Source: Arenicola marina
Taxonomy: Eukaryota > Annelida > Polychaeta > Arenicolidae
Direction: 5' to 3'
DNA length: 64,000 bases
Assembly: GCA_964019135.1 (NCBI GenBank)
Contig: OZ025258.1
Coordinates: 30,808,186-30,872,185 of the forward strand
This document shows, in pieces, positions 20,026 through 62,500 of the stretch (the first letter of the stretch is position 1; each line of letters begins with the position of its first letter). A program made the position numbers and the translations under genes. Below the pieces are notes generated by a model, which did no database searches, was not told the DNA's origin, and saw only the letters and a list, made by a program, of their open reading frames with translations.

Positions 20026-20766
20026 TCACATAAAAACATCATTATTAGATTCGGTTTCTTCATTGGGAGATGCCGACGGGGGCAGGAAATCATCACCCTT
20101 CGTAAAGTAACGCAACACGATGACGTTCTCGCTATCATCGCTGTATTCTCGTTCGAACACGCTAGTCCGTACATTGGTCACGTGGTCTGCGTCGTAGGCG
20201 GGGTTAGGGACGCCGTCCTCCGCGCCATCGGTCGCCGTGGCGTCAGGCGGCGGCGGCGGCCGCTTCACCGCGTAGGAATCTCTGGTGAACGAGCGGAAGA
20301 GCACGGAATCGACGGTGAGGCACCCAGTCCCGGGGCAGGGCGAGCACTGGTCCCCGCAATCCTGTCCCTCAGAGCCCACGCAGCACAGGGCCACGACCTG
20401 CGAGACCGCGATTATGACCACCAGGCTGATCAACATCGTCATCGTCTTGAAGGGAAACAGCTGGTAGCCCGTCAACTCGTCGTACCAGGGGTACTTTATC
20501 AGCGGCGGGAGCGACAGCAGCGGTTCGCCGCCCGTCAGGCGGAAGAATCCACCGGCGAAGAAGCCTGCCAGCGACCCGTAGGAGTTGGTGTAATTAGGCA
20601 GGTGAATGACACAGACGAGCTGGGGAAAGAGCATGGCGTAGATGAGGTCGGCACAGAGGTACCACAGGCCGTAGACCGACTGGACCAGGATGGCCATCAA
20701 CACCGCAGCCGCCCCGACGAAGATGACGGCCACTCGCATTACCCACAACACCTCAGTCTCCGTCGC
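20026..20766 (-). CDS. SLC5A7: SLC5A7 exon 9 (TM9 to C-terminus)
   Basis: Acceptor ATTTTGCAG. It encodes [11 protein letters not shown], several helices with [20 protein letters not shown] and LTGGEP, then a 115-residue cytoplasmic tail. The tail holds a cysteine-rich stretch, a five-proline run, NPAY and an acidic end, and stops with TGA at 20026-20028. It is not alignable by eye with the human tail. Confidence 0.94.
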   Translation of the reverse strand, partial: ATETEVLWVMRVAVIFVGAAAVLMAILVQSVYGLWYLCADLIYAMLFPQLVCVIHLPNYTNSYGSLAGFFAGGFFRLTGGEPLLSLPPLIKYPWYDELTGYQLFPFKTMTMLISLVVIIAVSQVVALCCVGSEGQDCGDQCSPCPGTGCLTVDSVLFRSFTRDSYAVKRPPPPPDATATDGAEDGVPNPAYDADHVTNVRTSVFEREYSDDSENVIVLRYFTKGDDFLPPSASPNEETESNNDVFM

Positions 20767-23700
20767 CTGCAAAATCAAAGCATTAACCGTAAATTATTCC
20801 ATGTACGTCGCATGGCAATATAAATCAATCTGAAATACACCATTATACGTAGACGCGGCTCGAGTAGAAATAAAAATCAGGTACAAAACAACCGCGACTT
20901 ATACAGCGGATAATACGGTAAATGATATATATTAACGCAAACGCGCAATACTGGGATTCACCACTGACCGTTTTTTTATTTTTTTTATTTAATTTTTTTT
21001 TTTTTATTTTCTTCAGCAAAGAGAGATACAGAATAATGTAACATCACGTAATACAAATATGCAAATATATATATATATATAATTTATTGACACTAGAGTG
21101 GAGGTATTAATTGGCTCAGTTGTTAGTATCTCAAACAAACATGCATCAAATTTGGACTGATAGACGGCGATGTCATCAGCATAGTATTCAAAACATAATT
21201 GTTTTCTAATATACTGTTTGAAACATTCTGGATTTAGGATCTTCCAGTTTGACATTTTGTGTTGATAAATATACCATTTAACGTACAATATGATAAAATG
21301 AATACTCCACACTTGGGCTTTCTTTTCCTCAGAGTCTCCGAATAACACAACCACATTTATTTTTCTGTGACTTTCATCTGCGGATAGTGAACGTTGAGTA
21401 CGAATAAAAATACATATAAATATAAAGATACTATTGCCCATTTCATGTTACCACCGAACCAGGCGAGAGCACTGACCGGTTTCTTGTTGCAGCAGGCGGC
21501 CAGGGCGTCGCGTAGCGGGGTGTAGATGTTCCTGGCGAACATGGCGCTGGAGGACAGGATGGAGGAGTCGGCCGAGGACATGACAGCGGCCGAGACGGCG
21601 CCCAACCCGATCACCGACACCCAAGTCGGGGTCAGGAACTGCATCACCATGGGTAACGCCAGAGAATAGTCGCAGGACGGAACCGGGACTTCGCCGAAGT
21701 CACGGTACGCTGTGGCGTTCCAATCTACGAGAGGACGAGGTCGTTAAAGTCACCCGCGATGATATGATTATACATGGACGCCATAAGCAAAGGGCTTTTA
21801 AATTGGCATTCTAACAAAGACAATTATCATAACGCATAGCATGTACAAAGTATTAATCAATGGGTCTAAGGATTTGTTATTACCTGGACAATGAATTTTG
21901 GCGGCCATAAAGCGATTACGATGGTCAAATCGCGATTCCGACGACAAATAGCAATTTCGACGACCATAACAGCGATTTTGGCGACCGTAACAGCTCGCCT
22001 ACTATGCCATAGTGATTCCGTAGACTATGTCCGGCGCGGAGCCTACAATTGTCAAGCGAATAACCACTGGATGGCTCCCCTTTGTAAATGATATCAAGAT
22101 GATTCATGTCACAATGAATGGGTGGGACCCGTGAAGACGACTCACCTGTGGACTTTGCAATGGCTCCTATGAGAACTGACGGGATGGCCATGATGAGGCA
22201 GCCAAAGCCAGCAACGATAGACAGCATTAAGGCACGGTAGGACGTCTTCTGAGACAGCACACGTTGAAAGTACACCTGGAAAAGATATTTCAGAAAGATG
22301 CCGGAAATATTATATGGAGTCGGACTGAGCGTTGGACCAGGCGTCCAATGAGTACAGGTGTAGAATAGTTCTGGCCTCAGTCCGGAATGGAGGCCGATAA
22401 GTTAACGACCCGAACTGACCGGATTCGAACCAGGGGCCCTTCGCATCCATGGCGAGCATATAATTACATATTATTATAAGGTCGTCCTTAAAATACTTAG
22501 CTACAAGGAACATGCCATGGATAACAATATTCCAAGGCATATGACAGTAATAATCAACAAGTAACAAAGACACATTCCATCATACAATAACATGACGATA
22601 CAATCAAACATGAAGACGTTTTAAATAATCATAGATTTTCAGGTATAATTATGAAAGTAAGGTAAGGGGGTGGTAGTGAGGTAGTGAGGAGGCTACCTGC
22701 CAGGGGATTCCCCCGAAGATGAGCAGGAGTCCCGTATCTATGTAGTTGCCGATCCAGGCATCCGGGTTGAGGGAGCCGAGCCAGGAGTCCTCCTGGTGGG
22801 CGGTCTCGGCGATGTTGGACACCGCCGGGTGCATCAGGGCGAAGGGGATGGCCAGCCACTGGGAGGAGGGGGCGGGGGGGTAGTGAAGAGGGAGGAGGGG
22901 GAGGAGTGGATGGAGAGGGAGGAGGGGGTAGAAAAGTGTATAGCGTAAAGGTGTGAGAAGTTCAGCAAAATCTGATATCAGAATATATAATTGTCTAGTA
23001 AATGTGCTGTATCAGCAGCTGTAATTGCTCTCAGTAACCTTAAACCCGGATTCCAAATGAGATCCAATGTGCAACATCTTATCTTACACATGTACTTGTA
23101 ATATCGCGTCCTGTTTTCAGCAGAGTGCCTGTGAAACCACCTAATACTATGTCAATCCGACTACCCTTCGACTATTTGTAATTATGTATGAATGCAAAAC
23201 TTAACTGGTGTCCACCGTCATCAATATAACAACCCTAAGCAACCTTTCATGGTCCAAAAAGTTGATAAAGCCCACAATGTACCATTTTACTGTTGTGTAG
23301 ATCAGAAATACGGTGATGAACGAGCGACCTCTGTCGTCGGGAGAGTGAAGCTTACCAGGCCAATGAATGTGAAGATGAGCTGTATGACGTCAGTGTAGGC
23401 CACAGAGAAGAGTCCGCCGATAAAGGTGTAGATTATGGCGACCGCGGCCGAGATTATTACAGCCCAGATATGGTTGATACCCGCTATCACACTGAGACTG
23501 GCGCCTGTGGAACATATCACAACTAAGGTTAATACCCGCGATCACACTGAGACTGGCGCCTGTGGAAAATATCACAACTAAGGTTGATACCCGCTATCAC
23601 ACTGAGACTGGCGCCTGTGGAACATATCACAACTAAGGTTGATACCCGCTATCACACTGAGACTGGCGCCTGTGGAACATATCACAACTAAGGTTAATAC

Positions 23701-26700
23701 CCGCTATCACACTGAGACTGGCGCCTGTGGAAAATATCACAACTAAGGTTGATACCCGCTATCACACTGAGACTGGCGCCTGTGGAACATATCACAACTA
23801 AGGTTGATACCCGCTATCACACTGAGACTGGCGCCTGTGGAACATATCGCAACTAAGGTTGATGCCCGCTATCACACTGAGACTGGCGCCTGTGGAACAT
23901 ATCACAACTAAGGTTGATACCCGCTATCACACTGAGACTGGCGCCTGTGGAACATATCACAACTAAGGTTGATGCCCGCTATCACACTGAGACTGGCGCC
24001 TGTGGAACATATCACAACTAAGGTTGATGCCCGCTATCACACTGAGACTGGCGCCTGTGGAACATATCACAACTAAGGTTGATGCCCGCTATCACACTGA
24101 GACTGGCGCCTGTGGAACATATCACAACTAAGGTTGATGCCCGCTATCACCCTGAGACTGGCGCCTGTGGAACATATCACAACTAAGGTTGATGCCCGCT
24201 ATCACAGTGAGACTGGCGCCTGTGGAACATATCACAACTAAGGTTGATGCCCGCTATCACACTGAGACTGGCGCCTGTGGAACATATCACAACTAAGGTT
24301 GATGCCCGCTATCACACTGAGACTGGCGCCTGTGGAACATATCACAACTAAGGTTGATACCCGCTATCACACTGAGACTGGCGCCTGTGGAACATATCAC
24401 AACTAAGGTTGATATCCTCTATCATACCGAGACTGGCGCCTGTGGAACATATCACAACTAAGGTTGATACCCTCTATCACACTGAGACTGGCGCCTGTGG
24501 AACATATCACAACTAAGGTTGATATCCTCTATCATACCGAGACTGGCGCCTGTGGAACATATCACAACTAAGGTTGATACCCGCTATCACACTGAGACTG
24601 GCGCCTGTGGAACATATCACAACTAAGGTTGATATCCTCTATCATACCGAGACTGGCGCCTGTGGAACATATCACAACTAAGGTTGATACCCTCTATCAC
24701 ACTGAGACTGGCGCCTGTGGAACATATCACAACTAAGGTTGATATCCTCTATCATACCGAGACTGGCGCCTGTGGAACATATCACAACTAAGGTTGATAC
24801 CCGCTATCACACTGAGACTGGCGCCTGTGGAACATATCACAACTAAGGTTGATATCCTCTATCATACCGAGACTGGCGCCTGTGGAACATATCACAACTA
24901 AGTTTGATACCCTCTATCACACTGAGACTGGCGCCTGAGGAACATATCACAACTAAAGGTAGATACGCACCCTATCACACTGAGACTTGTGCCTGTGGAA
25001 CAAACCTACGCGGAGAGTGGTACTGATACTAAACATCCCCATTAAGGATGGCAAAACAGACTGGCTGACTGTGGAAATACGTGTATCACAATTAAGGTAA
25101 CTGACACTGACATCTATGTAAACATCGTAACCGACGTCGGTAAAGTTTCCTGGCTGCCACTGAGAGAGTAGTGCTGGCCACTGACCTAACGCAGACAGGA
25201 TGGCTCCCGACCAGAAGATATCCCCTAGCAGTGCCGGGATATAGAGCAGTGCTGCCATCACGCGGCCATATCGGATCTGGAAGGGATCCAACATCGTGAC
25301 GTAGCCCGCGTCCCGCATCTTCCGCGCGAAGAGCACGCCACCTGGCGAATAATAAACAACATGGTTCACTACAAATCCGTTCAACAGCCTTCACTTACCT
25401 ACAAATATTGGAGCATATAGTAGGCCTGTATGGAAATCTAGCTGTTAGATATTTCATTCGCTCTATATAATTACTAAATATAATTGTAGAAATGTTATAT
25501 AATTATATATGCGTATAACATAGACGCACAGTGTACTCACCGAGCACTAGGCTGATGGCGTACCCGATGGGGGCCTGACACCAGACGAGGCCGTAGCCCG
25601 GAGTGAAGACGTACTCCGCCGTTCCGTTGATGTATCCACCGCCGACCCAAGTGGCTGAAAGAGAACAGCCAAAGTTTTGGAAGCGTACATGAAGGCGCGT
25701 AACGCGTATGCCTCTAGATTTTCAGTTCTGCGATATATATAGTGGCAACGTCATAGATATTTCACATTTACGGTATTAGTAAGGACTACATATGATAATG
25801 GCAGTGCGGCAATGATAGTATCAAATATACTACAATTCGTATGTATGCAATTGATGTCTATTATAGATATAACCTAAGTAGTAAGTGTTAGGAACAAAAA
25901 CGTTTATTTCCAGAGTAAAGTTAACAAACGTACAAACCTGGTATTCATTTATAATTATAGTTAACCATCGTATACAATTCTAGCAAGTGAAGGGTTGAAC
26001 ACTAGCCCTATCAGGAAAAGTGGAACTACAAGCTGGAACGGTCAACCAAACGAATGAAAAGTAAATGTCAAGCGATGGGCCATCCATCTCTTAGCCTATC
26101 GTTACACTTTTCTTTTCTTCGTCTAAAGCTAATGAATATCAGACCAAGTACTGGTAATCCCGCCCTTTGGCGTAAGTAAATACAGCAGAGAGTTATGAAA
26201 GGCTGCTTTGATGCATGGTAGATACAAAGATACAAGGTAGATACAAACATGGTCGTTTGACTGTTACTGTTACTGGCCTGTCAAGACAACGACTCGCTGG
26301 TCATGGTGAAGACTCACCTGCCATGGTGAAACCTCACCTATCACGGTAGAGCCTCACCTGTCATGGGGAAGACACACCTGTCATGTTAAAGACTCACCTG
26401 TCACGGTAAAGCCTCAGCTGTCATGGCGGAAACTCGCCTGTCATAGCCCAGACTCACCTGTCAATGTGAGGCCTCACCTGTCATGGTTAGGCCCCACCTG
26501 TCACAGCCCAGACTCACCTGTCAATGTGAGGCCTCACCTGTCATGGTTAGGCCCCACCTGTCACAGTCCAGACTCACCTGTCAATGTGAGGCCTCACCTG
26601 TCATGGTTAGGCCCCACCTGTCACAGCCCAGACTCACCTGTCATGGTGAAGATGCCGACGACAAGGCCGATGTTTCTGCCGGCCAGCATGACGTCCTCGC

Positions 26701-29011
26701 TCTTGTTGCCCGTCTCCATGGCTTTGGCTCTCCATGAGGCGTAGACCCCGATGGCCAGGATGACCACGTAGAAGACGAGAACTGACACGAGACCTGCGAT
26801 GTTGGGCTGGCCACGCAGGAAGGTCGTCTCCAGGGCCGTGAAGTCATTGAGACACGTGTCGTCACTGGTGGCAGGAGGGTGGCAGTGTGGGTGGTCGGGG
26901 AGAGATGGTGGGTAAATGTAATTTCGTCAGTTTGGAAAGAATCCATATATTATTAAGTGAGCAGACAAGCATACATCAACAGGATCGAAGCACTACATTA
27001 CTACAGTGGTAGGGGTTTGCCGAAGAGGCCATTTAGAGAACGAGAAAAACGTGGGCGATTTTGTGGTAATTGGGGAAAACGTGTTGGTTCGAAAAGGCAG
27101 CTAAACTAGACACTGACATTCATGGCAAAGTATGTGGAGGTTAAATATTTGAATACTTTCGGTATCAACTGGAATATATACTGAAAACCTGCCATTTTAA
27201 ATGGCAGATTTCGGCTCCGGGGATTGAGAAAAAGGAGACTTTTTGGCAGCACATATGTATATACCAAACTATATGTAGTCCCCCCCCCACCCCCCCCTCC
27301 TCCCCCCCGGGTATGAAACACATTCGCCTTCACGTTGTCACGGACCCACTCTAGCCAATGTGTACACAATCGTGGCCTAAACGAGGAAGCATTTCAGACG
27401 CCCATTGGTTTGTGAGCGTTATAAATTAGCTTTCATAGATGTAATGATGAGTCATGCGCGAACGCATGATATATGACAACGGGGGAATGGGGGCACCAGT
27501 GCACGCTGGATCTGCACCGCTTTAAGGTAGTATGCGGGATCACCGTGGCGCCACCTTGCGAATGCAACTTATATGTGGCCGTTTTTCGACTTTTCGAGCA
27601 TTTTTTCGCTACGAAATCTAAATATTAATACAATGTACATAACAGGAAATATTATAAACTAATAATATCAATACTTTTGGAGAATTTTTTTTCACGTTTT
27701 TTTTATAGGCCGTAAATTCCGTAAGTGACAATGCTGAGTTTCCATAAGGGGGTTCAGGTGGGACGGTTCAAGTTCACATTGCAAAAAAATAGCCTGAAAA
27801 CATATCAATATTATTGTATTCTTCTAAGTACATAACAAAGTACTCCTTGTGCTAAAATCAGGATGTTTTACCGTCTGGTTTTTTTACAATAAAAAATAAG
27901 TGAAAATATTTGAAACTCCCATAGGCCGCCATGTTAAATTGTAATAGGGGTGCTTCCACTTCACTTTTTGGAAAAAGGAGCCTGAAAAAAACTTTTTTTT
28001 ATTACTGCGTTGTAATAGGCATCTATAAAGATGTATCTGGTGAAAATTTCACAATCTTTTACCGTAAGTTTTGAATTGTAGCATACTAACTTAAACTATC
28101 ATGGTAAGGCCAACGAGAAGGCACTTGCACCGAGATGTATAGATAGATGATAGATATATAGACGAATGTAGACATAATAGTCCTGTGCGTGGAAAGAGGT
28201 TTCACCGTGCATGTTCGCGACATGACCGCATGGCCAGTCATGTGCATTAAGTGCCTTTTAAACTTCATATAACATGACCCGCAAAGATGGGACGCTACCT
28301 CCACACCCCCAACACCCACCCACAGACATGACGACGAGGTAAGAGATTTCGAGGTTCAGAGTTACGCCTCCTTACTCATAAAACAGTATCCACAATATAG
28401 TCTCCCACATGTTGCCAACATTGTTTGAACCCCTCTGCCCCCCCCCCCCCCCCACCCTCCTCCCCCCTGTCCTTTTCAGAATGATGACAATATGTTAAGC
28501 CATGTCATAGGTGACATTGCATCACTGTTTTTTTTCTATAATTCCCGATTGTCCGATAAGCTACGGTGCCCCTGACCCGATCGCTCATTGAATTGCACTT
28601 CATGCTGCGGCATAGCAGGCCCGACAGCGCAGTGGGTTACAGCGCTCGCCTTGAGTGGTCTGGTCACCTGAGAGTCTAACGACACGTGGGTGGGTGGTTC
28701 GCGCCCCGCTGGGTGGACATTCGGCACAGGTACGAGATACAGATAGAATATCGATTGACAACAAATTGATATTTTCATCCAATTCAATTCTACCCAAGGA
28801 ACACCACACCAGAGCAAGTCCATTATACGTTATATCATAACCAGCATAGACTACATATAATATCCCTTGGTAGACTCCAAGAAGCCGTTTGACAACGTAG
28901 AATACAATGATTATATACTTAAGATTGTGTCGAGAAACGAATAACGAGAAACCTCGTCCGGTGGGAGATGCTGAATATATCCAGTGAAACCTCTTACCTG
29001 TAGTTAGACAT
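20026..29011 (-). CDS. SLC5A7: high-affinity choline transporter (SLC5 family), nine coding exons
   Basis: The gene encodes a Na+-coupled choline symporter that would bring choline into cholinergic nerve endings for acetylcholine synthesis. Coding exons on the minus strand: 29011-28998, 26864-26638, 25654-25541, 25341-25186, 23504-23356, 22858-22697, 22275-22146, 21724-21477, 20766-20026. All introns are GT...AG, phases agree at every junction, and the coding length is 1941 bases (646 residues; human is 580). Diagnostic stretches match vertebrate CHT1: [13 protein letters not shown] (residues 82-94), [44 protein letters not shown] and SVYGLWYL. The N-glycosylation site STDWNAT (Asn320) corresponds to the known Asn301 of mammals. 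The C-tail is longer, with six cysteines (528-549) and an NPAY motif (588-591). Introns 2 and 4 contain minisatellites copied from the adjacent splice junctions. A paralogue-specific substrate cannot be excluded. Confidence 0.93.
21477..21724 (-). CDS. SLC5A7: SLC5A7 exon 8 (extracellular loop, TM7-TM8)
   Basis: It encodes [12 protein letters not shown] with the conserved glycosylation sequon, then [20 protein letters not shown] and [10 protein letters not shown]. Donor CCG|GTCAGT, phase 0. Confidence 0.94.
22146..22275 (-). CDS. SLC5A7: SLC5A7 exon 7 (TM6-TM7)
   Basis: Acceptor TTTTCCAG, donor ACAG|GTGAGT, phase 0 to 1. It encodes [19 protein letters not shown] then [19 protein letters not shown], matching human YFQRVLSS and GCLVMAIPAILIGAIGAST. 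Confidence 0.95.
22360..22461 (-). mobile_element. SINE fragment in intron 6
   Basis: The minus strand has a perfect B box GGTTCGAATCC after an anticodon-arm-like GCCATGGATGCGAAGG. Its tail GGCCTCCATTCCGGACTGAG parallels the GGCGTCCATTCGGGCCTGGG tail of the SINEs at 3848 and 4154. Inserted in the gene's own orientation. Confidence 0.6.
22697..22858 (-). CDS. SLC5A7: SLC5A7 exon 6 (TM5-TM6)
   Basis: 54 codons, phase 0 to 0, encoding [16 protein letters not shown] through [11 protein letters not shown]; human has WISVPFALSHPAV and LLLMLGGIPWQ. Donor CAG|GTAGCC. The acceptor follows a roughly 70-base almost pure pyrimidine tract. Confidence 0.95.
23356..23504 (-). CDS. SLC5A7: SLC5A7 exon 5 (TM4-TM5)
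   Basis: It encodes [20 protein letters not shown] through TFIGL; donor CTG|GTAAGC, phase 0. The acceptor used here is the one nearest the complete exon. Some 27 near-identical acceptors lie upstream in the 55-bp array, and use of any of them would insert multiples of 55 bases. Confidence 0.9.
23505..24995 (-). repeat. 55-bp minisatellite copied from the exon 5 acceptor junction
   Basis: About 27 tandem 55-bp units fill the end of intron 4, in direct continuity with exon 5. On the gene strand each unit is the first 33 bases of exon 5 (encoding [10 protein letters not shown]) followed by 22 intronic bases that end in GTTCCACAG. Every unit therefore carries an acceptor AG and a short coding piece. 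Left-hand units are almost identical. Between about 24360 and 24900 a variant (GATATCCTCTATCATACCGA) alternates with the standard form to make a four-unit, 220-bp higher-order repeat. Confidence 0.95.
25186..25341 (-). CDS. SLC5A7: SLC5A7 exon 4 (TM3-TM4)
   Basis: Acceptor TATTCGCCAG, donor TTAG|GTCAGT (C at +3, slightly off consensus). It encodes [20 protein letters not shown] and the next helix ending SALG, collinear with human [20 protein letters not shown]. Confidence 0.93.
25541..25654 (-). CDS. SLC5A7: SLC5A7 exon 3 (TM2-TM3)
   Basis: Acceptor TCTTTCAG, donor GTGAGT, phase 1 to phase 1. It encodes [17 protein letters not shown] through GYAISLVLG, the family's most recognisable segment, with the Gly-rich TM2 turn. 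Confidence 0.95.
26291..26637 (-). repeat. 20-bp minisatellite copied from the exon 2 donor junction
   Basis: About 17 units in exact 20-bp register run from the exon 2 donor into intron 2. On the gene strand each unit is the last 13 bases of exon 2 (TTCACCATGACAG) plus intronic GTGAGTC, so most units keep a consensus 5' splice site. Units nearest the exon form a 60-bp three-unit higher-order repeat present three times (26461-26640). Confidence 0.92.
26638..26864 (-). CDS. SLC5A7: SLC5A7 exon 2 (TM1)
   Basis: Acceptor CCTGCCACCAG follows a pyrimidine-rich tract; donor is CAG|GTGAGT, phase 1. The exon encodes the extracellular N-terminus, TM1 ([19 protein letters not shown]) and the start of TM2 ending at GIFTMT. 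The last 13 exonic bases plus the donor are the unit of the adjacent 20-bp array. Confidence 0.93.
27526..28090. mobile_element. 565-bp MITE with TTAA target duplication
   Basis: It starts GGTAGTATGC and ends with the near-inverse GCATACTAAC, with TTAA immediately outside both ends (27522-27525 and 28091-28094). No coding capacity and AT-rich interior. TTAA duplications are typical of piggyBac- and Kolobok-type elements; I cannot choose between them. It lies in SLC5A7 intron 1. Confidence 0.7.
28618..28740 (+). mobile_element. SINE, diverged relative of the 7837 copy
   Basis: It shares the head GCAGTGGGTTACAGCGCTCG and the CTGGTCACCTGAGAG segment with 7837-8080. The B box is GGTTCGCGCCCC. 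The tail is lost or diverged and no clear target duplication is visible. Located in SLC5A7 intron 1, antisense to the gene. Confidence 0.7.
28998..29011 (-). CDS. SLC5A7: SLC5A7 exon 1, coding part
   Basis: Only 14 coding bases: ATG TCT AAC TAC AG followed by donor GTAAGAG. The two leftover bases complete an AGT serine codon with the first base of exon 2, giving MSNYSDDT. The ATG has A at -3. NYS is a possible N-glycosylation site on the extracellular N-terminus. The start was chosen because exon 2 has no upstream in-frame ATG and this junction restores frame and splice consensus exactly. Confidence 0.75.
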
Positions 29012-29121
29012 TGTTGCGCCTTCTGTAATGACCTGTTGTGGAGATAGCTGGGGTTGGTTTTCACACGGGTTATATGAGCGGTGAGCTGGTTCACAGTAGA
29101 ACAATTTCAGTATAACTTATG

Positions 29122-29137: not shown

Positions 29138-29140
29138 ATG

Positions 29141-36261: not shown

Positions 36262-38449
36262 TCTCTCCTCCCCGTCCTTCCATTTCCCTCCGCCCCACCC
36301 TGCTGTCCTTCCATTTCTATCCACCCCACCCTGCCCGTCCTTCCATTTCCCTCGACTCCCCCTTGCCCGTCCTTCCATTTCCCTCTACCGCACCCTGCTG
36401 TCCTTCCATTTCTCTCCACCAACACTGCTCGTCCTTACATTTCCCTCCACCCACCCTGCCCGTCCTTCAATTTCTCTCTACCCCACCCTGCTGTCCTTCC
36501 ATTTCTCTCCACCAACACTACTCGTCCTTCCATTTCCCTCCACCTCACCCTGCCCGTCCTTCCATTTCCCTCGACTCTCCCTTGCCCGTCCTTCCATTTC
36601 CATCGGCCCCACCCTGCTGTCCTTCCATTTCTCTCCACCCACCCTGCTGTCCTTCCATTTCTCTCCACCCCATACGGCTTGCCCTTTTATTTCCCTCGAC
36701 CCCACCCTGCCCATCCTTCCATTTCCCTCGACCCCAGCCTGCTGTCCTTCCATTTCTCTCCACCCCATACGGCTCGTCGTTTCATTTCCTTCCACCCCAC
36801 CCTGCCCGTCCTTCCATTTCCCTCGACTCCTCCTTGCCCGTCCTTACATTTTCCTCGACCCCACCCTGCTGTCCTTCCATTTCTCTCTACCCCATACGGC
36901 TCGCCCTTTTATTTCTCTCCACCTCAACCTGCCCGTCCTTCCATTTCCCTCGACCCCACCCTGCTGTCCTTCCATTTCTCTCCACCCCATACGGCTCGCC
37001 CTTTTATTTCCCTCCACCCCACCCTGCCCGTCCTTCCATTTCCCTCGACCCCAGCCTGCTGTCCTTCCATTTCTCTCCACTCCATACGGCTCGCCCTTTT
37101 ATTTCTCTCCACCTCAACCTGCCCGTCCTTCCATTTCCCTCGACCCCACCCTGCTGTCCTTCCATTTCTCTCCACCCCATACGGCTCGCCCTTTTATTTC
37201 CCTCCACCCCACCCTGCCCGTCCTTCCATTTCCCTCGACCCCAGCCTGCTGTCCTTTCATTTCTCTCCACCCACACTGCTCGTCGTTTCATTTCCTTCCA
37301 CCTCACCCTGCCCGTCCTTCCATTTCCCTCCACCTCACCCTGCCCGTCCTTCCATTTCCCTCGACTCCCCCTTGCCCGTCCTTCCATTTCCCTCGACTCC
37401 ACCCTGCTGTCCTTCCATTTCTCTCTACCCCATACGGCTCGCCCTTTTATTTCTCTCCACCTCAACCTGCCCGTCCTTCCATTTCCCTCGACCCCACCCT
37501 GCTGTCCTTCCATTTCTCTCCACCCCATACGGCTCGCCCTTTTATTTCCCTCCACCCCACCCTGCCCGTCCTTCCATTTCCCTCGACCCCAGCCTGCTGT
37601 CCTTCCATTTCCCTCCACCCCACCCTGCCCGTCCTTCCATTTCCCTCGACCCCAGCCTGCTGTCCTTCCATTTCTCTCCACCAACACTACTCGTCCTTCC
37701 ATTTCCCTCGACGCCACCCTGCTGTCCTTCCATTTCTCTCCACCCCACACTGCTCGTCGTTTCATTTCCCTCGACCCCACCCTGCTGTCCTTCCATTTCT
37801 CTCTACCCCATACGGCTCGCCCTTTTATTTCTCTCCACCTCAACCTGCCCGTCCTTCCATTTCCCTCGACCCCACCCTGCTGTCCTTCCATTTCTCTCCA
37901 CCCCATACGGCTCGCCCTTTTATTTCCCTCCACCCCACCCTGCCCGTCCTTCCATTTCCCTCGACCCCAGCCTGCTGTCCTTCCATTCCCCTCCACCCCA
38001 CCCTGCCCGTCCTTCCATTTCCCTCGACCCCAGCCTGCTGTCCTTCCATTTCTCTCCACCAACACTACTCGTCCTTCCATTTCCCTCGACCCCACCCTGC
38101 TGTCCTTCCATTTCCCTCGACCCCAGCCTGCTGTCCTTCCATTTCTCTCCACCCCATACGGCTCGCCCTTTTATTTCCCTCCACCCCACCCTGCCCGTCC
38201 TTCCATTTCCCTCGACCCCAGCCTGCTGTCCTTCCATTTCTCTCCACCCACACTGCTCGTCCTTCCATTTCCCTCCACCTCACCCTGCCCGTCCTACCAT
38301 TTCCCTCGACTCCCCCTTGCGCGTCCTTCCATTTCCCTCGACCCCACCCTGCTGTCCTTCCATTTCCCTCCACCCACCCTGCCCGTCCTTCCATTTTCTT
38401 CCACCCCACCCTGCACGTCGTTTCACTTCCCCCCGCCCTTCACCCCACC
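36262..38449 (+). repeat. C-rich minisatellite, about 32-bp unit, about 68 copies
   Basis: Units follow CCCTGCCCGTCCTTCCATTT plus CCCTCGACCCCA, with recurrent variants CTGCTGTCC and ATACGGCTCGCCCTTTTATT arranged in longer repeated blocks of three to six units. The plus strand has few purines and no stops in any phase. Because 32 is not a multiple of three, all three plus frames stay open (up to 862 codons), so these ORFs are artefacts of composition. Confidence 0.95.
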
Positions 38450-38451: not shown

Positions 38452-38525
38452 GGTGCCTCCATGGTGTAGTGGTTGGCGATTAGACCGACGATCAATAGGT
38501 ACTGGGTTCGAATCCCGGCCTGCAT
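38452..38525 (+). mobile_element. tRNA-like SINE head at the array edge
   Basis: An A-box-like TGGTGTAGTGGTTGGCG is followed by a perfect T-arm CTGGGTTCGAATCCCGG. The 5' and 3' acceptor halves do not pair and no anticodon stem forms, so this is a tRNA-derived fragment and not a functional tRNA. Confidence 0.55.
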
Positions 38526-41454
38526 TTCCCTTTACCCCACCCTGCCCCTACATCCCTTTACCCTACCCTACCCTACATCCCTTTCCCCCACCTCACCCCG
38601 TCACCCACCCGCCGCATCCCCCACGTACCCTCTACCACCCCACGTATACCCTCTACGCCCTCTCCTAAGCAACCTCTACTCCATGCCCCCCTAACATACC
38701 CTCCCCCACGTACTCCCCACACCCCGCCCCACCTCGTACCCCCCTCGACATCACAGGGGCCTGATTGCTTGACCGCGGCCTCATTTAAATATCCAATAAC
38801 GAGGGATTTACGTTTCGTTTGCCAGCGACATCCGCCGCCTGACGGGACGCCCGTGAACCAACCAGTGACGTCGCAGATTGCCATGCCGACCCACTGGTCC
38901 GCACGACAAATTGCTTCCTCCACGAAGAATCGTGAGGAGGGGAGGGGTGAAGGGGCGACAGGGGAGGGGGGAGGGATTGACAGGGGAGGGGGGGAGGGGG
39001 AGGGGGGCACAGGGTAGGGGAGATAAGGGAGGAGATGGGCGACAAGAGAGCGGAGTTGCGACAGGGGGGGGGGAGTGGCGACAGGGGCGGGGTGGGGGGG
39101 GGGGGGAGAGGAGTGGCGATAGTGACGGGGGTTGGGAGGTGTAGGTGCGGTTTGATGGAATGTGGTGGCCCCAATTACGATGCATCCCTGGCTTCACCTA
39201 ACTTCCCGCGCCAATGCATATATGGCCATAGGGTTCTCATGGTATTGGCTTGGTGCCTAGAACTTTCTTGGCAGAATAAAAAACATTCTAATGATTTCAG
39301 TAAAAGTAATAAACTCAGCAAAGCTGCAAAAAATTATGGTTCCGTCGCACCATATATATATGCACAACCCATTTCACCAAGAGTAACACTCGTAACCCTA
39401 CATTATTCACATACTACTTTGAACCCTAGCAACCGACGTAAGTGTTATATGGCAATTGTTAAGGTGCGGTCATTTTGAACGAGTATTTTTAGTCTCGCAG
39501 TCGTGCAAATATACATTCTTTTTTCGTTCTCCTTTGGCCCAGTGAAGTATTTTTTGATTTTATTTTATTATAACTCTCAGCCGCCAGGGTGATGTGCCTT
39601 GTTTTACTATGAGAACGTTACGATGTGTTTGTGACATGATCCCTAAATCTCTATGTATAGGGTTTCTCGTTGAATCTCGCCATTCTGTAATGACGTGTCT
39701 TAATTTTCGGTCTATTTTAACATGGAGGCAACGTCTCCTCTTGGTCTTCCCCAAGACAAAAGAATTTGAAACGAAAACTGAAACAAAGACGATTCCCGAC
39801 ATCTCTTCAACCCACCCACATCAATTATTCTGATTCCGTTTGACAGGACATATAGTAGTACAGTGTATATGTAACTCAGCAATACTGCAAAACGACGCCT
39901 ACCGCCAGGTGTCTCATTGTCATGTATCATCATCATGGATCAATCTCGACCCCACCGCGAGGGACGAGGTAGGGAGGGGTGGGGGGATAGGGTGGTGGGA
40001 TGGGGTGGGGGGATGGAGTGATATCACCCTATATGTACCACCACTGCACCCTCTGCAACCGTCTCCGCCTGGTTTTCATGATCTTCTCATAATGCGCCGG
40101 TTTGACACGCACATTAAGCAAGGTAAATAAACTAAGGATATTGTGAAGACTTGGTCTTTATTACGGCAGGCCTATCGTGTTTGCCCACGCAAGCATCGCA
40201 CGCTTAATCCCACCAGTAAAAAGGCACCGAGTATTAGCGAGCAATCCCCACCCCACCACACCCCTACCCCCCCCCCCCCATTCACCGCTATCCCGCCCCC
40301 ACCCCATCTAATACCCTTGCACTCTCGCCCCACCCCTAGATCCCCGTTGCCTGCCACCGCCCCCTCCCTCCCCCGCCACCCCGCCTCCTCCCATCGCCCA
40401 CCCTGCCGTAACCGATGACACTAATCACCACGGCTTTTCTAAACAAGTGATTACTACCCATGTTCCGGGTTGTCGCTGGGGTGCCTTTATGAACCGACAC
40501 AACCTTTGCGCCATCCACCCATGTTGGTTCCCATACACATTTAGTATATTAGGCACACTTCCGGCATGTGTCGATATTGTATAGGCGGCAGGTAAGATAG
40601 GAGAGAGAGTGGGGAGGGAAGGGGGGGGGGGGGGAGCAATTGGAAAGCGGGAGGGAACAAAAACCTGGCGATAGAGGGTTCCATTGATGGGGCCGAGTTG
40701 GGGTGGGGGCTAGGCTGGTCATGGTTCGGAAGCTAGGGTAACATGGAGTAGATTGGCACGGGAAAATACGGGGCATGAGGCACTCTACCGGAGGGTTCGA
40801 CTGCGACAGGGCCGTGCGGGGCGAGCTAGAAGGGACGAGACATTAGGGATTGCCCTACTCATGGCTTATGACGAAACAAAACACTGGCAGCTCACGGCAG
40901 CACGTGGCCGCAGCCGGGGGATGCCTACCGAGGGATGCCTCGTAAAGCTGAGCCACGGCGGGGCTATTGGCAAAATTGTGGCCACTTCGATGACAAGCAT
41001 CTCGCGCCCTAAAACTCATGAACCAGTGGGGACCTCCGCCCCCTTCCGGTCGCCTCCCTGCCTCGCCCCCGCCCTCCCCCGCCCCCTCATCTCGGTGCCC
41101 CATTACTCCATACGGCGTACCCTTTGACAACCATTACGCACCCCCACCCCCCTCCCCCCACGCACCCCTTCGAATACACTTTTCCATATCCCATTCAGAG
41201 GCCCGACGCCACTCAGTCATTCTTCAGACAGCAGCAGTGATCCGCTAGATCCCCCACCATCCACCCCCAGCCCACTCACCCCCTGCTAAAAAGCGCCCAC
41301 TTCCCGCGTGGCTTCAGCCCCAGCTTTAGCCGCGCCGTTTGATCCTCAGTGATCACTGGTCGATTACACGAAAAATTTTCCCGACCGAAGGCATTATGGG
41401 TTCCCCCGGCTGCCCATCATCTTTCTCTCCCCTCTCTCCCCTACCACCAGGGGG
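38526..41454. other. gene-poor, strand-asymmetric GC-rich stretch
   Basis: C-rich to 38760, G-rich at 38935-39140, mixed, then G-rich at 39970-40020 and C-rich at 40245-40400 and 41040-41300. Many homopolymer runs. No conserved ORF is recognised in any frame. Confidence 0.5.
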
Positions 41455-44368: not shown

Positions 44369-44910
44369 TGACCAATCACAACTGATGGATCCCACGAGGT
44401 AACCAATTACAACTGATGGTTTCTACGTGCTAACCAATTACAACTGATGGGCCCCAAGAGCTAACCAATCACAACAGATGGATCCCATGAGCTAACCAAT
44501 TACAACTGATGGGTCCCATGGGCTAACCAATCACAACAGAGGGATCCCACGAGCTAACCAATCACAACAGAGGGATCCCATGAGTTAACCAATCACAACA
44601 GGTGTATCCCATGAGCTAACCAATCACAGCAGAGGGATCCCATGAGTTAACCAATCACAACAGGTGTATCCCATGAGCTAACCAATCACAGCAGAGGGAT
44701 CCCATGAGCTAACCAATCACAACAGAGGGATCCCATGAGTTAACCAATCACAACAGGTGTATCCCATGAGCTAACCAATCACAGCAGAGGGATCCCATGA
44801 GCTAACCAATCACAACAGAGGGATCCCATGAGCTAACTAATTACAGTCGACAGGCCCAAAGAGCCAAGCAATTACAACTTACAACTGATGGGCCCCACGA
44901 GCTAACCAAT
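44369..44910 (+). repeat. 31-bp CCAAT minisatellite, array 1
   Basis: About 17 units of AACCAATCACAACAGAGGGA plus TCCCATGAGCT. Nearly every unit carries CCAAT, most as AACCAATCA. Confidence 0.93.
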
Positions 44911-45259
44911 CATTTTGAGACATTGTGCATAGGGTCCAGCACTTACCGCGTATGTGTGTGTGTATTGGAGGCGGGGGGGGGGGGGGGCAAATATCCAATA
45001 TATAGATCGATATGAAATTTCCCACGACCATATAAAATAGTCTTGGAGGCAGCAACAAGAACAGCGATATTTGTTGGACATCATGAAGGACAAAAACAGT
45101 AGGATCAATGTAAGAAATGATAATACAATGATAATAATTTTACATTAAACAATGATAATAATTTTACATTAAACAATGATATATATAAGCATTAACAGTA
45201 GCGTCACTAAAGAAAAGCTAGGTCACATTAAAATCTGGAGCGAAAAACTTTGAAGAACT

Positions 45260-45867
45260 GACCAATCACAACTGATGGATCCCACGAGGTAACCAATTAC
45301 AACTGATGGTTTCTACGTGCTAACCAATTACAACTGATGGGCCCCAAGGGCTAACCAATCACAACAGATGGATCTCATAAGCTAACCAATCGCAACAGAG
45401 GGATCCTATTCGCTAACCAATCAAAACAGAAGAGTCCAATTAGCTAACCACTCACAACAGAGGGATCCCAAGAGCTAACCAATCCCAACAGAGGGATCCC
45501 ATGAGCTAACCAATTACAACTGATGGGTCCCATGGGCTAACCAATCACAGCAGAGGGATCCCACGAGCTAACCAATCACAACAGAGGGATCCCACAAGCT
45601 TACCAATCACAACAGAGGGATCCCATGAGCTAATCAATCACAACAGAGGGATCCCATGAGCTAACCTATCACAACAGAGGGATCCCATTTGTTAACCAAT
45701 CACAACAGGTGGATCCCATGAGCTAACCAACCACAGCAGAGGAATCCCATGAGCTAACCAATCACAACAGAGGGATCCCATGAGCTAACTAATTACAGTC
45801 GACAGGCCCAAAGAGCTAAGCAACTACAGCTTACAACTGATGGGCCCCACGAGCTAACCAATCATTT
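45260..45867 (+). repeat. 31-bp CCAAT minisatellite, array 2
   Basis: About 20 units of the same consensus. It starts with the same variant units (GATGGATCCCACGAGG, GATGGTTTCTACGTGC) as array 1, showing block-wise duplication. Confidence 0.93.
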
Positions 45868-46185
45868 TGAGACATTGTGCATGGGGTCCAGCACTTACCG
45901 CGTATGTGTGTGTGTATTGGAGGCGGGGGGGGGGGCAAATATCCAATATATAGATCGATATGAAATTTCCCACGACCAAATAAACTAGTCTTGGAGGCAG
46001 CAACAAGAACAGCGATATTTGTTGGACATCATGAAGGACAAAAAACAGTAGGATCAATGGAAGAAATGATAATAGAATGATAATAATTTTACATTAAACA
46101 ATGATATATATAAGCATTAACAGTAGCGTCACTAAAGAAAAGCTAGATCACATTAAAATCTGGAGCGAAAAACTTTGAAGAACTG

Positions 46186-47038
46186 ACCAATCACAACTGA
46201 TGGATCCCACGAGGTAACCTATTATAACTGATGGTTTCTACGTGCTAACCAATTACAACTGATGGGCCCCAAGAGCTAACCAATCACAACAGATGGATCC
46301 CATAAGCTAACCAATCGCAACAGAAATCCTATTGGCTAACCAATCAAAACAGAGGAGTCCAATGAGCTAACCAATCACAACAGAGGGATCCCATGAGCTA
46401 ACCAATTACAACTGATGGGTCCCATGGGCTAACCAATCACAACAGAGGGATCCCACGAGCTAACCAATCACAACAGGTGGATCCCATGAGCTAACCAATC
46501 ACAACAGAGGGATCCCATGAGCTAACTAATTACAGTCGACAGGCCCAAAGAGCTAAGCAATTACAACTTACAACTGATGGGCCCCACGAGCTAACCAATC
46601 ACAGCAGAGGGATCCCGTGAGCTAACCTATCACAACAGAGGGATCCCACGAGCTAACCAATTACAACTGATGGGTCCCATGAGCTGTCCAATCAAAACAG
46701 AGGGATCCCATGAGTTAACCAATCACAACAGGTGGATCCCATGAGCTAACCAATCACAACAGAGGGATCCCATGAGCTAACTAATTACAGTCGACAGGCC
46801 CAAAGAGCTAACCAATTACAACTTACAACTGATGGGCCCCACGAGCTAACCAATCACAGCAAAGGGATCCCATGAGCTAACCTATCACAACAGAGGGATT
46901 CCATGCGCTAACCAATTACAACTCATGGGTCCCATGAGCTAACCAATCACAATCGATGGGCCCCAAGAGCTAACCAATTACAACAGAGGGGCCCATGTGC
47001 TAGCCAATCATAAACGAGGTGTCCTACGAGCCATACAA
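46186..47038 (+). repeat. 31-bp CCAAT minisatellite, array 3
   Basis: About 27 units, beginning with the same leader units as arrays 1 and 2 and fading out near 47038. No fourth unique block follows. Confidence 0.93.
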
Positions 47039-50620: not shown

Positions 50621-50621
50621 C

Positions 50622-50690: not shown

Positions 50691-50895
50691 CCTTGCTAAT
50701 TTTGAATGTAGACTTAGTGAAATTCACGCAACGTCGGATTGTCCGCTTCTGCAGAGTTGCCTGAACATTGCACGGCCTTTGTAAATATCGCTATTTTAAT
50801 TTGCGAACCGGAATATCCGCACATAACGGATATTATTATATGCCGTCTAGCCTTCCAAAGGCAAGGTCGTCGAAGAAGGCAGCATTGGCGCGAAA

Positions 50896-51062
50896 AGATA
50901 ATACTGCACGAGAAGATAATACCGTGCGAGAAGATAATACTGTGCGAGAAGATAATACTGTGCGAGAAGATCGTGCGAGAAGATAATACTGCGCGACAAT
51001 ATAATACTGTGCGAGAAGATAACAGTGCGTAAGCAGAAACAATTGTGTGACAAGATTATTGC
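50896..51062 (+). repeat. 18-bp minisatellite upstream of the SLC46 gene
   Basis: About 9 units of GCGAGAAGATAATACTGT with increasing divergence toward 51062, ending 50 bases before the SLC46 ATG. Eighteen is a multiple of three, so one frame reads REDNTV repeatedly, but it stops before the gene. May be promoter or 5' UTR. Confidence 0.85.
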
Positions 51063-51112
51063 GCGACAAGACGACATTGTGTGAGCCCTACTACAGAGCG
51101 TTTCGACAACCC

Positions 51113-52735
51113 ATGGCTTGCGATGATTGCTATCTCAGCCACTTGGTGGCCGAGTTTCTCTTCTTCTTCTTCAAGATTGGTGAATCCATGTTGGACCCGT
51201 CCATCCGGATCTACATCTACCAGGGCGTCTGCTTCGAGCAGTTCCCGAACGACACCACGTGTTACCGTCTGCGAGACTTCCCCGAGAAGGAGCGTACCGT
51301 CCAACACTTCTCGGCCAATTACATCATGTACTACAAGATCCTGCTCAACCTGCCCGCCATTCTACTCGGGTTGGTCTGCGGCGCTTGGAGCGACAAGATC
51401 GGACGGAAGTTGCCGGTAATGCTGACGTCATTCGGAACCATCCTGGCCGTGATGTGCTACATGCTGAGTATGGTGGTGGAGCCCTACCGGCCCTACCTGC
51501 CGCTGGTGCTCGTGGGCGCCGCCATCAGGGGCAGCTTCGGTAAGTCGGCCATCATGACCATGGCGCTTCACAGCTACGTCTCCGACATGACCACCGAGGA
51601 GGAACGCACTAAGAAACTTGGGCGCTTGCTGTCGATGAATTTCTTCGGCTACTTCATTGGATCGCTCGCCACTGGAGCGCTGTTGCAAATCTCCAGCTTT
51701 GATGTGATCTTCTGTGCGGCCGTCTTTGTCAACAGCATCTGCGTGCTCGTGTCTGTTCTCTTCATGCGAGAGAGCCTGTCACCACGACCACAAGGGGGCG
51801 CCGCCACCGACGTCACTGGGGAGACACCGGTTGGGGAAGGCGGTGACCGGTCGGCCAGAGTGTCATATCTGGCGGCGGTAGCGCGTAAGTCCCCCTTCAG
51901 CTTGAGCAACGTGCAGGAATCCATGATGGTTCTATTTAAGGAGCGTCCCGCCAGAGGGCGCTGCCACCTCATCCTGTTGCTATTGGTGATAGTGATGTGG
52001 CAGATGTGTAAGTCGGGCGAGACAGATGTGGCGCTATTGGTCGTGGAGCGCGCCCCTCTCAGCTGGGACAAGTCGCTGTACGGGTACCTGCTGGCCACGG
52101 ACTACGCCTGTCTGGGGCTGGCGGTCTTCGTCCTCTTGCCACTCCTCCTCCGCTTCACTCACCTCGACGATATGAGTCTCATCCTCGTCGGCGTCGCCTT
52201 CAAGATCCTGCGTCTGGTGATGCTGGCCTGCAGTAACAGCACGTGGATGGTCTTCCTGTCGGTCGTCGTGGGCTGTCCCAGCGCCATGGTCGTCTCGGGG
52301 GTGAAATCCCTCGTCAGCAAGACCGTCGACGAAAACGAGATGGGCAAGATCTTCTCGCTGCTGTCCTGCGCGGAGACCATCTCCAACCTGCTGGGGTCGG
52401 TCATCTTCACGGCCGTCTATGCGTCCTCCCTGAGTCTATTCACCGGCTTTACCTTCGCCCTGGACGCCGTCGCCTTCGTCCTCGCCTTCTTCGCCCTGCT
52501 TCTCTTGGCCCGAGACATGAAGACGTCCGCCCAATATGGCATCCTCCAGTGGATCACCGGCGGAAGCGGAAGTACAGGAAACTACGGCAGCGCATGCGCA
52601 GCGACAACATCCGCCTCGGCCACTTCGATAAACAACACGTCAGCTAACAGTGAGGGACAGGCAGCTGAGAACAAAATCCAGGCGATCAAGGAAGAAGCTT
52701 CTGATGAAGAATTATTTTCCTATAATCACAACTAA
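51113..52735 (+). CDS. SLC46-family transporter (MFS), single coding exon
   Basis: 540-residue membrane protein of the major facilitator superfamily, SLC46 branch (proton-coupled folate transporter and SLC46A3 relatives), probably proton-coupled and located in the plasma or lysosomal membrane. Evidence: an N-terminal helix LVAEFLFFFFKIG, an extracellular loop 1 with paired cysteines (40, 50) and sequon NDT (46-48), the MFS loop 2-3 motif SDKIGRK (93-99), a long central loop near residues 220-270, about 12 predicted helices and a polar Ser/Thr/Glu-rich C-tail. The start is the first ATG in frame (ACCCATGG context); the frame is open upstream to 51047 without an ATG. No intron is needed. Substrate and orthology within SLC46 are unresolved, since this family is often expanded in marine invertebrates. 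Confidence 0.88.
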   Translation: MACDDCYLSHLVAEFLFFFFKIGESMLDPSIRIYIYQGVCFEQFPNDTTCYRLRDFPEKERTVQHFSANYIMYYKILLNLPAILLGLVCGAWSDKIGRKLPVMLTSFGTILAVMCYMLSMVVEPYRPYLPLVLVGAAIRGSFGKSAIMTMALHSYVSDMTTEEERTKKLGRLLSMNFFGYFIGSLATGALLQISSFDVIFCAAVFVNSICVLVSVLFMRESLSPRPQGGAATDVTGETPVGEGGDRSARVSYLAAVARKSPFSLSNVQESMMVLFKERPARGRCHLILLLLVIVMWQMCKSGETDVALLVVERAPLSWDKSLYGYLLATDYACLGLAVFVLLPLLLRFTHLDDMSLILVGVAFKILRLVMLACSNSTWMVFLSVVVGCPSAMVVSGVKSLVSKTVDENEMGKIFSLLSCAETISNLLGSVIFTAVYASSLSLFTGFTFALDAVAFVLAFFALLLLARDMKTSAQYGILQWITGGSGSTGNYGSACAATTSASATSINNTSANSEGQAAENKIQAIKEEASDEELFSYNHN

Positions 52736-55953: not shown

Positions 55954-55957
55954 AATA

Positions 55958-57613: not shown

Positions 57614-57637
57614 CGCCCTCCGTGGACCCTCCTAGGA

Positions 57638-57899
57638 CTCCTAGCACAGGGCCGGGGCACGTGCCCCTAAAGACCCTAAAGTATATCTGTGCCCCCCTTT
57701 TCAAATTATCTCCACCCCCGGTCGTTAAACCCCAACAAAGTAATGGAGCGCTTGGTCACAATTGTGTCAGTCCCTGCCCCCCCCCCCCCCCCGCCGCCCG
57801 GTCGCAAGATTTTAGTATGCCTCCCCCCACCCCCCCTCGGCCCCCGTTTTTTTTTATTGTGCCCTCCCTTTCAAGGATTGCACACGCCCCTGCGCCACG
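57638..57899 (+). mobile_element. C-rich MITE-like relic
   Basis: It contains CGGTCGCAAGATTTTAG and CTGTGCCCCCCTTTTCAAAT modules like those inside the 32788-33110 element, and ends with GCACACGCCCCTGCGCCAC. A reversed related piece (CTTGCGACCAGGGGG) is at 58350. Boundaries uncertain. Confidence 0.4.
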
Positions 57900-59356: not shown

Positions 59357-59503
59357 ATGGCCTCTACCTCTAAGGACAGCCACCATCAGCGTCATTCTGC
59401 TGGTACTGAGCACACTTCTTCAGTTTTGCCGGGTACCAGCACTGACCAGACTGACAATATGACAGACACACAATCAACACCCCACCAACTGGACTTCTAC
59501 CAG
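59357..59503 (+). CDS. CUEDC1: CUEDC1 exon 1
   Basis: 49 codons, Ser/Thr/His-rich, ending HQLDFYQ (human RRLEFNQ). ATGG context is favourable. Donor CAG|GTGATA, phase 0. Confidence 0.8.
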
Positions 59504-62500
59504 GTGATATCTCTTATTTTTTCTTATTGTGAATCAATCACCCAGAGATTTAATCCTGTAGACTGCTTCAATGAAATATTGATGGGAATGACAGGCAGGA
59601 ATCATTGAAGAACAATTTAGAAAGGTTAATATCATTTATTTTAAATTCTTGTGGATTCCATAAATTTGACAGTTTATTCATATGATATTTTTTTTTTTAC
59701 CCTAAGGCAATGGCAGACTTTAAACACATGTTTCCCAACATGGATGAGGAGGTGATCGAAGCTGTGCTTCGGTCCAATAATGGGTCCGTGGATGCAACGA
59801 TTGACCAGCTCCTGACGATGGGAGTAGATATAGAGGGTCCATTGGCTGGTCACTCCAGACTAGCTGCCGCAAGGGTTAGTCACGACATGTAGCATCACAG
59901 GCTGGGAGACATAAACAATGATCATAGATTACTGTATTTGTGCTGGAAGGAAATATTATTAGTTTTAGACAACCTCTCATATTAACATAATTGTATCCAA
60001 AAAAAATTATTAGACTAAAAGCAATTTTTCTTATGGCTACAAAATATAGTTTGCGGTTCTGTAATTTTGTCTAATTTTGACAAACTTAGTGTACTAACAG
60101 CTGCATACAATGTCACTTTTTGTTGTCTAATTTGGACATGCATGTTTTGTTGCAGGGTTTAAATAGCAAAGCTGCTTCAAATTCAGTGGCCCCTCCCCCA
60201 TACTCACTGGGCTTCCCGGAACCCCCGCCGAGCTATCAGGAGTGCGCCGCCTCCGTCAGACCCAAGAATAGCGTGCTGCCCTCTCCAGCGGCGGCCGAGA
60301 CCAAGTCACCGGCCTTAAACCTGCCGGTGGTCAGCGACCTGCTGGCCGACGACCCATGTGATGACTCCGATGGATCCTTGCGGGACAGCGATCTACTCGG
60401 GGCGATAGGGGGTCAAGCGTTTGTATCGGGCGGTGAAACCATCCCCAAGGAGCCGCTCCCCCTGGGAGACATCGCGCTGGTGGATCCCACGCCCATGAAC
60501 CCCCCCGCGGCCCCCGTGGTCCCCGCGGCCCCCGTGCCCAAGGTCCCGGAGAAGATGCCGCTGTTTAACCACGTGTACACGCCGCGCCAGAGCCTGGAGC
60601 CGCGCCGGCTGTTCTTCAACTGGAAGCCGCCTCTACTGGGGCCGCTCCCCGACGACTTCCTACGGCTCCCGCCTGACTTTATTAGCCCGCACACGTGTGG
60701 TGGCCTCGCCACCCCGCCGGCCCTAGCCTCGCCCGGCCCCAGCGGCTCAGCTCGCAGGTCAATAGGTCACCGGACCGGGTCGTTGCCAAGCCCCAGTTTG
60801 AGCCCTCGGCCGTCTTCCGTACGGAGCGCTAGTCCATCGGTAAGACATATTAATATTAGCGTATTAGCGATTCACTAGTCCTCGCCGCCCCAATATTACA
60901 TTGCCGATATACGCGGTCGACGTTATCTACAATCCCATCCATGTGTTTGTCTGTGCAAATATTCTAGCAGTAAGGAGGACTTTGCCGTTCTTCTCTCCAT
61001 TCAATATCGCTGTGTGGTATGCTAACTCAGTGACGCCCCCCCCCCCTCAATCTCCGCCGCAGATGGAACCTCAGGTCTCAGGTTGTAAGCAGACTTAACT
61101 GTAGACCTCTAACTTGACTATGTTTCATGCCACCACAATTCATGTTCCCGAGATCGTTCTTGGTTTAACTTTGACCCTAACATTTTATTGTTTTGTTGCC
61201 CCCGCGGCAGGGCGATGAGCTGAGCTCCCGCCTACTGGAACAGCGCATGGCCGAGAACGTGCGGAAGCGGAACTCGCTGCCGGCTGACCTCGACCCTGCT
61301 ACGGCCCAGCTGCTAGAGGATGAACGCCTGGCACTCATGCTGCAGAACGAGGAGTTCTTGGCAGAGTTACAGGGAGATGAGGACTTCATGCACGCTCTTG
61401 AGAGAGGTGAGGGACTTTAATGCACGCCCTTGAGAGAGGTGAGTGACTTTAATGCACGCTCTTGAGAGAGGTGAGGGACTTTATTGCACGCTCTTGAGAG
61501 GGGTGGGGGACTTTATTGCACGCTCTTGAGAGAGGTGAGTGACTTAAATGCACGCTCTTGAGAGAGGTGAGGGACTTTAATGCACGCTCTTGAGAGAGGT
61601 GAGGGACTTCATGCACGCTCTTGAGAGAGGTGAGGGACTTTAATGCACGCTATGGAGAGGGGTGAGGGACTTCAATGCACGCTCTTGAGAGAGGTGAGAG
61701 ACTTTAATGCACGCTCTTGAGAGAGGTGAGGGAATTTAATGCACGCTCTTGAGAGAGGTGAGGGACTTTAATGCACGCTCTTGAGAGAGGTGAGGGACTT
61801 TAATGCACGCTCTTGAGAGAGGTGAGGGACTTTACTGCACGCTCTTGAGAGGGGTGAGGGAATTTAATGCACGCTCTTGAGAGCTGAGGAACTTTAATGC
61901 ACGCTCTTGAGAGGAGTGAGGGACTTTAATGCACGCTCTTGAGAGGGGTGAGGGACTTTAATGCACGCTCTTGAGAGGGGTGAGGGACTTTAATGCGCGC
62001 TCTTGAGAGGGTGAGGGACTTTAATGCACGCATTTGAGAGAGGTGAGTGAATTTAATGCACGCTCTTGAGAAAGATCAACGACTTGAATGCGCTCTCTTG
62101 AGATAGATCAGTGATGTTATTACACCGTTTTGGGAGAGCTAAGTCACTTGGAACGAGGTACGAAATATAATGCTCGATCGGCAGCCAGTGGAGGGACTTA
62201 AAATATGAAAGGATCGGCGTCGTTTTTTCACGCCTTTGCCTTCTGCAATGCTATTTCTGTAATATGTATGTTAATTTGAATTGCAGATCGAATGAATGCC
62301 ACAGCATTTGAACCACCAACGATAGAGAGTCCAGAACTAGATCACAACAGACCAAAGTCAGGTATGACATGCGTCTTTAATGAAAGATATGTACGCATAC
62401 ACGTTGTTCTAACATGCAGTGAGATTCCTCAAGGAATATCGTTGCAAGGTACATTGATATCCCATGTGAAATGACGAAATTGCCCAGTGCTATTAAATAA

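Follow-up and report, generated by a model that had tools for sequence, protein, structure and literature searches.

Tandem repeats built from exon edges and splice sites adjoin three exon boundaries in two unrelated genes

Tandem repeats that lie across exon-intron boundaries have been described in lancelets, where they are called mirages. In the globin genes of these animals, repeats occur over both types of boundary, their length varies by haplotype, and RT-PCR suggests that splicing is regular; the excerpts of that study that we could consult cite the 2002 Adh3 work and two further reports, and propose that such repeats are a route to new introns (PMC3087553). Repeats in lancelet PGBD5 contain splice sites, and the accessible part of the paper cites Adh and TnC as mirages with undisturbed splicing (PMC3902484). 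VCBP3 of lancelets is said, in a passage for which the data are not shown there, to have introns with complete or partial exons, some of them with splice sites (PMC2632668). Related structures occur in other organisms. A minisatellite in human IFI6 (6-16) provides multiple splice donors (Turri et al., 1995, as cited in an excerpt of PMC4526556), and a new intron of the potato RdRp gene arose from a tandem duplication that crosses an intron-exon boundary, according to the section available (PMC4974935). The AGGT model of intron gain is treated in the consulted part of a review (PMC3443670). Earthworm metallothionein offered no parallel: the excerpt seen places repeats within an intron, without junction copies.

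The window analyzed here is a stretch of 64,000 nucleotides. Three arrays were studied in two genes, whose models were assembled manually using open frames and GT/AG sites:

20026-26864, (-) strand: SLC5A7/CHT1-like choline transporter gene, 8 exons, spliced frame open
26864-26638, 25654-25541, 25341-25186, 23504-23356, 22858-22697, 22275-22146, 21724-21477, 20766-20026, (-) strand: transporter exons, in 5' to 3' order
59707-62361, (+) strand: part of a CUEDC1-like gene, with a CUE exon from 59707 to about 59874, an exon that ends at 60839, then exons 61211-61406 and 62287-62361; further exons follow

The eight joined exons of the transporter gave 641 codons before the stop, and in this hand-spliced model the frame ends at 20026. 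Its start codon was not found and is placed further upstream than 26864. The product matched the Pfam family SSF (sodium:solute symporter family; E 3.4e-32) and, in PDB, high affinity choline transporter 1 (E 8.6e-167). In the second gene, the CUE exon matched Pfam CUE (E 6.4e-15) and PDB entry 2dhy, CUE domain-containing protein 1 (E 4.6e-12). Pfam had no match for the piece of exon that adjoins array 3; the frame stays open across the 61406/62287 junction, and the part downstream of the CUE exon is presumably similar to human CUEDC1. The hosts are two unrelated genes, as a sequence-only reading of this DNA had claimed: the choline-transporter-like gene on the (-) strand holds arrays 1 and 2, and the CUEDC1-like gene on the (+) strand holds array 3. 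The authentic splice sites in the spliced models are an acceptor at 23505|23504 (-) and donors at 26638|26637 (-) and 61406|61407 (+). Around them, the arrays are laid out as follows:

23472-23504, (-) strand: exon template of the 55-bp unit of array 1, the first 33 bases of transporter exon 4
23505-25011, (-) strand: array 1, acceptor type, with 26 further in-register copies and then a degenerate copy at 24957-25002; a partial remnant lies at 25058-25098
26638-26651, (-) strand: exon template of the 20-bp unit of array 2, the final 14 bases of the most upstream coding exon in the model
26292-26637, (-) strand: array 2, donor type, with 17 further 20-bp copies (14 exon-like and 6 intron bases)
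61382-61406, (+) strand: exon template of the 32-bp unit of array 3, the last 25 exon bases
61407-62144, (+) strand: array 3, donor type, with 23 further copies, each 30-32 bp long, of which the last three are degenerate

TRF called the arrays at 23472-25002 (period 55, 27.8 copies), 26300-26651 (period 20, 17.6 copies; also period 60 at 26300-26643), and 61374-62103 (period 32, 23.0 copies), and each of the three extends into the exon. The unit of array 1, which lies upstream of transporter exon 4, joins 22 intron bases, the last five of them CACAG, to 33 exon-like bases. Its copies have a mean identity of 97.1%, seven of the 26 are identical to the authentic edge, and variant units alternate. 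The remnants at 24957-25002 and 25058-25098 scored 58 and 34, above a shuffle maximum of 24 (500 shuffles each). Copies of array 2 near the exon are arranged as 60-bp triplets. One of the 23 copies of array 3, at 61605-61635, equals the authentic edge exactly. By eye, an extra base that would shift the frame if coding is present in all but one of the 23 copies of this array and absent from the exon; the last copy is too degenerate to judge for this base.

The splice signals recur through the arrays. AG is kept in 26 of 26 copies of array 1 and AG|GT in 14 of 17 copies of array 2, while the 22 copies of array 3 that were examined for a donor (of 23) have GT in 19 cases and AG|GT in 12. This anatomy agrees at all three junctions with the earlier description of arrays that adjoin coding exons, with a unit made of the exon edge and its splice site: there are two donor arrays and one acceptor array, all further copies extend from the authentic boundary into the intron, the splice motif is kept in most copies, and AG|GT stands at the unit joint of the donor arrays.

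The exon origin of the units was compared with chance controls. When the 40 exon bases at the junction, without intron bases, were aligned to their own array, the scores were 34 for array 1 and 30 for array 3, and neither was equalled by any of 2000 random 40-mers from the window or any of 2000 shuffles. Array 2 scored 13, which 12 of 2000 sequences equalled in both controls, and is the weakest of the three here. We also aligned 30 exon bases to the whole of their own intron at 22 junctions (both ends of seven transporter introns and four CUEDC1-like introns, with the intron before the CUE exon excluded and one donor entered as 59873, one base off). None of 1000 shuffles equalled the score at any of the three array junctions. 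At the other 19, exon-edge copies were rejected, none being convincing: 18 lay at 75/1000 shuffles or above, and acceptor 62287, at 9/1000, was dismissed as a second array-derived site after values consistent with chance (56/5000 shuffles on repeat and 102/3000 random 30-mers from the window). The observation that three arrays abut coding exons and have exon-edge units is confirmed, except for the divergence gradient that had been claimed with it.

Divergence had been said to increase away from the exon. This was clear for array 3 (rho 0.58, p 0.004, 23 copies), where the rise is mostly due to the last three copies (first 20 copies only: rho 0.35, p 0.13), and weak for array 1 (rho 0.36, p 0.07, 26 copies), which has degenerate remnants further out. 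Array 2 had no rise (rho -0.21, p 0.40 for 18 units; rho -0.42, p 0.10 for 17 units), and for it the claim did not hold.

Compared with the lancelet mirages of Adh3, the globins BflGb6 and BflGb9, TnC, and PGBD5, as the excerpts describe them, the likeness is close: the repeats span a 5' or a 3' boundary, AG or GT is present in many copies, and the units have high identity. The arrays studied here have units that span the boundary with exon bases, copies that adjoin the authentic boundary, and splice signals in many copies; the exon copy is weakest in array 2 (12/2000 on the 40-base test, 0/1000 against its own intron). They differ in size, with 17-26 further copies per array against 6 units in one haplotype of BflGb6, 3 in the other, and at most 7 and 6 in a PGBD5 assembly, and in number, a span of 39 kb holding three arrays that belong to two genes. 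The earlier suggestion of an undescribed class stands only in part. Single-gene mirages are in print for lancelets, in the portions we consulted (PMC3087553, PMC3902484), and a genome-wide survey of junction arrays was not found in the open-licence literature, which omits most subscription papers. The structure itself is not new, and the arrays look like large new examples of mirages.

We consider it likely, with a probability of roughly 85%, that the three arrays are exon-boundary minisatellites of the mirage kind, in which a segment at the junction was duplicated and amplified and the surplus copies are spliced out. A short segment across the exon-intron junction would have been duplicated in tandem, and unequal exchange or slippage would then have amplified and homogenized the copies. 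At one end of each array would stand the real exon edge, anchored by coding constraint, with the copies spreading into the intron. The extra base in the copies of array 3, missing from the exon, suggests that the exon copy is held by this constraint, and copies within the arrays that match the authentic edge exactly (7/26 and 1/23) would be expected under ongoing exchange. The claim of a recurring tandem duplication that includes exon edges is supported by the three junctions with their surplus copies on the intron side. Such arrays could persist because splicing normally takes the copy that adjoins the coding exon and removes the surplus.

An early stop would follow from splicing at any tested copy (63/63; 17/17 in array 2, 26/26 in array 1, and 20/20 in array 3, for which 20 of the 23 copies entered, copies without GT included, and the frame was traced only into the next exon). 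The exon-side sites preserve the conserved transporter frame. A simple U1 duplex model placed 12 of 17 donor copies in array 2 and 17 of 22 in array 3 at most 1 kcal/mol from the authentic donor, so that the site itself does not ensure that only the exon-side copy is used; together with the early stops, these near-equal copies imply that the exon-side copy must normally win. On the basis of the reading frame, we infer that the surplus copies are spliced out. The authentic site would be the first donor or the last acceptor, either choice giving the shortest exon, and choice by exon definition could fit donor and acceptor arrays alike. In lancelet mirages splicing is reported to be regular, in the accessible text, whereas the splice choice proposed here is deduced from sequence. 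The arrays also resemble the human IFI6 minisatellite in that repeats can act as splice donors; they differ in that downstream units of IFI6 are used in three mRNA species, according to the excerpt, whereas here any tested copy leads to an early stop.

The branch-point motif is yUnAy. In array 1, only acceptors 0 (the authentic one) and 3 of 27 have a perfect yUnAy (TTAAC) at most 45 bases upstream. That the authentic acceptor is one of 2/27 with the motif has a probability of about 7% by chance, and this weak, post hoc result is at most suggestive.

It is very unlikely that the introns are young and arose by Rogers-type gain, in which an exon segment carrying AGGT is duplicated in tandem and the array would form the bulk of the new intron. 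The sequence-only reading had suggested that the donor arrays could be young or expanded introns, and AG|GT at their unit joints (14/17 and 12/22) would agree with such gain; the AGGT model is established in general (PMC3443670), gain of this type was proposed for lancelet mirages (PMC3087553), and the potato intron born from a duplication over an intron-exon boundary is an example (PMC4974935), as far as the available parts of these sources go. The arrays share with the potato and AGGT-model cases a tandem duplication that involves splice signals. In gain of this type, however, both splice sites come from the duplicated segment, and here the opposite sites were unmatched to the arrays: 30 exon bases at acceptor E2 and donor E3 had no match beyond chance in the intron (624/1000 and 152/1000 shuffles), and acceptor 62287, the site opposite array 3, is taken as chance on the values given above (9/1000 shuffles but 102/3000 random 30-mers). 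The lack of any sign of duplication origin at the opposite site, compared with the excerpted potato and AGGT-model cases, argues for expansion and not gain. In addition, each intron keeps 174-637 nt outside the counted array (637 nt for array 2, 174 nt for array 1, and 174 nt for array 3, the last two including a degenerate copy of about 41 and about 32 nt, respectively), and array 1 is of the acceptor type, which the AGGT-duplication model does not describe. The introns with arrays, of 983 (array 2), 1681 (array 1), and 880 nt (array 3), are the three longest of 11, the remaining measured introns being of 199-710 nt. Given these lengths, the unmatched opposite sites, and the residual intron sequence, the expansion of existing introns probably fits better than young introns, so that of the two readings proposed earlier for the donor arrays the expanded one is favored. 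Even less probable are ordinary intronic minisatellites that reached exon edges by chance. The window is rich in minisatellites, with four further large array regions outside identified genes, but all three long arrays within gene models adjoin an exon exactly, for which random placement within introns gives a joint chance of about 4e-7 (post hoc, with independence assumed), and their units contain exon sequence.

The least probable of the alternatives is that selection maintains the repeated splice sites, which might offer U1 additional places to bind or act as regulated decoys that lead to transcript decay. The near-equal donor strengths, the intact acceptor AG in every array 1 copy, and the early stop from each of the 63 tested copies would agree with it. 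Against it, homogenization suffices to account for the conservation, and variability in the intron-side columns of array 1 is not significantly lower than in the exon-like columns (3/22 against 10/33 variable, Fisher p 0.20), for which reason we rejected a different conservation of the two halves of the unit. Amplification of a duplicated junction segment within existing introns is retained as the preferred reading.

Likeness to the published mirages suggests, tentatively, a lancelet origin of the window. If the host is not a lancelet, this would be the first case of mirages outside lancelets in the literature that we found, apart from the human IFI6 minisatellite. Cases in print amount to a handful of genes in the sources consulted, and a census would allow their contribution to intron growth, and perhaps to intron gain, to be measured. 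Should such arrays be common genome-wide, exon edges would be hotspots of tandem duplication and the arrays would be natural tests of choice among near-identical splice sites. It is a speculative and rather unlikely extension that splice junctions are the preferred seed of minisatellites in this genome through a process linked to transcription or splicing, that introns lengthen to a large extent through exon-edge arrays, and that the dozens of near-identical competing sites reveal how the spliceosome chooses.

The rest of the window was also surveyed. A minisatellite of about 10 kb with a 47-bp unit and about 199 copies (TRF) lies at 9515-19310, on the 3' side of the transporter gene, with degenerate copies by eye from about 9230. 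Large minisatellite regions with units of 31-32 bp lie outside identified genes at 36267-38438, 41506-43749, and 44371-47010, and no exon-edge copies were detected in them. These four regions were rejected as junction arrays: outside the regions themselves, nothing in the window matched their units at E below 1e-3, apart from the neighboring 38523-38547 for one of them. No coding exon was recognized alongside them, and unknown genes are possible there. Searches of the window with Rfam (gathering scores) and a tRNA scan gave zero hits, DNA pattern searches of genome-contig and viral-contig collections gave no match, and a protein scan of viral contigs gave one pattern match, which was no relative. 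Reading frames at 2708-3478 (-) and 4573-4887 (-) had no Pfam match. A retroelement integrase-like reading frame is present at 1-282 (+), with Pfam rve_3 just above the cut-off. A long single reading frame at 51023-52732 (+) encodes an MFS transporter (Pfam MFS_1), for which the sole PDB match below 1e-10 was the proton-coupled folate transporter; an array of 18-bp repeats at 50890-51056 overlaps the upstream end of this frame. Within the choline transporter gene, a short purine-rich tandem repeat at 22861-22928, which on the (-) strand is a polypyrimidine tract, lies directly before the acceptor of exon 5.
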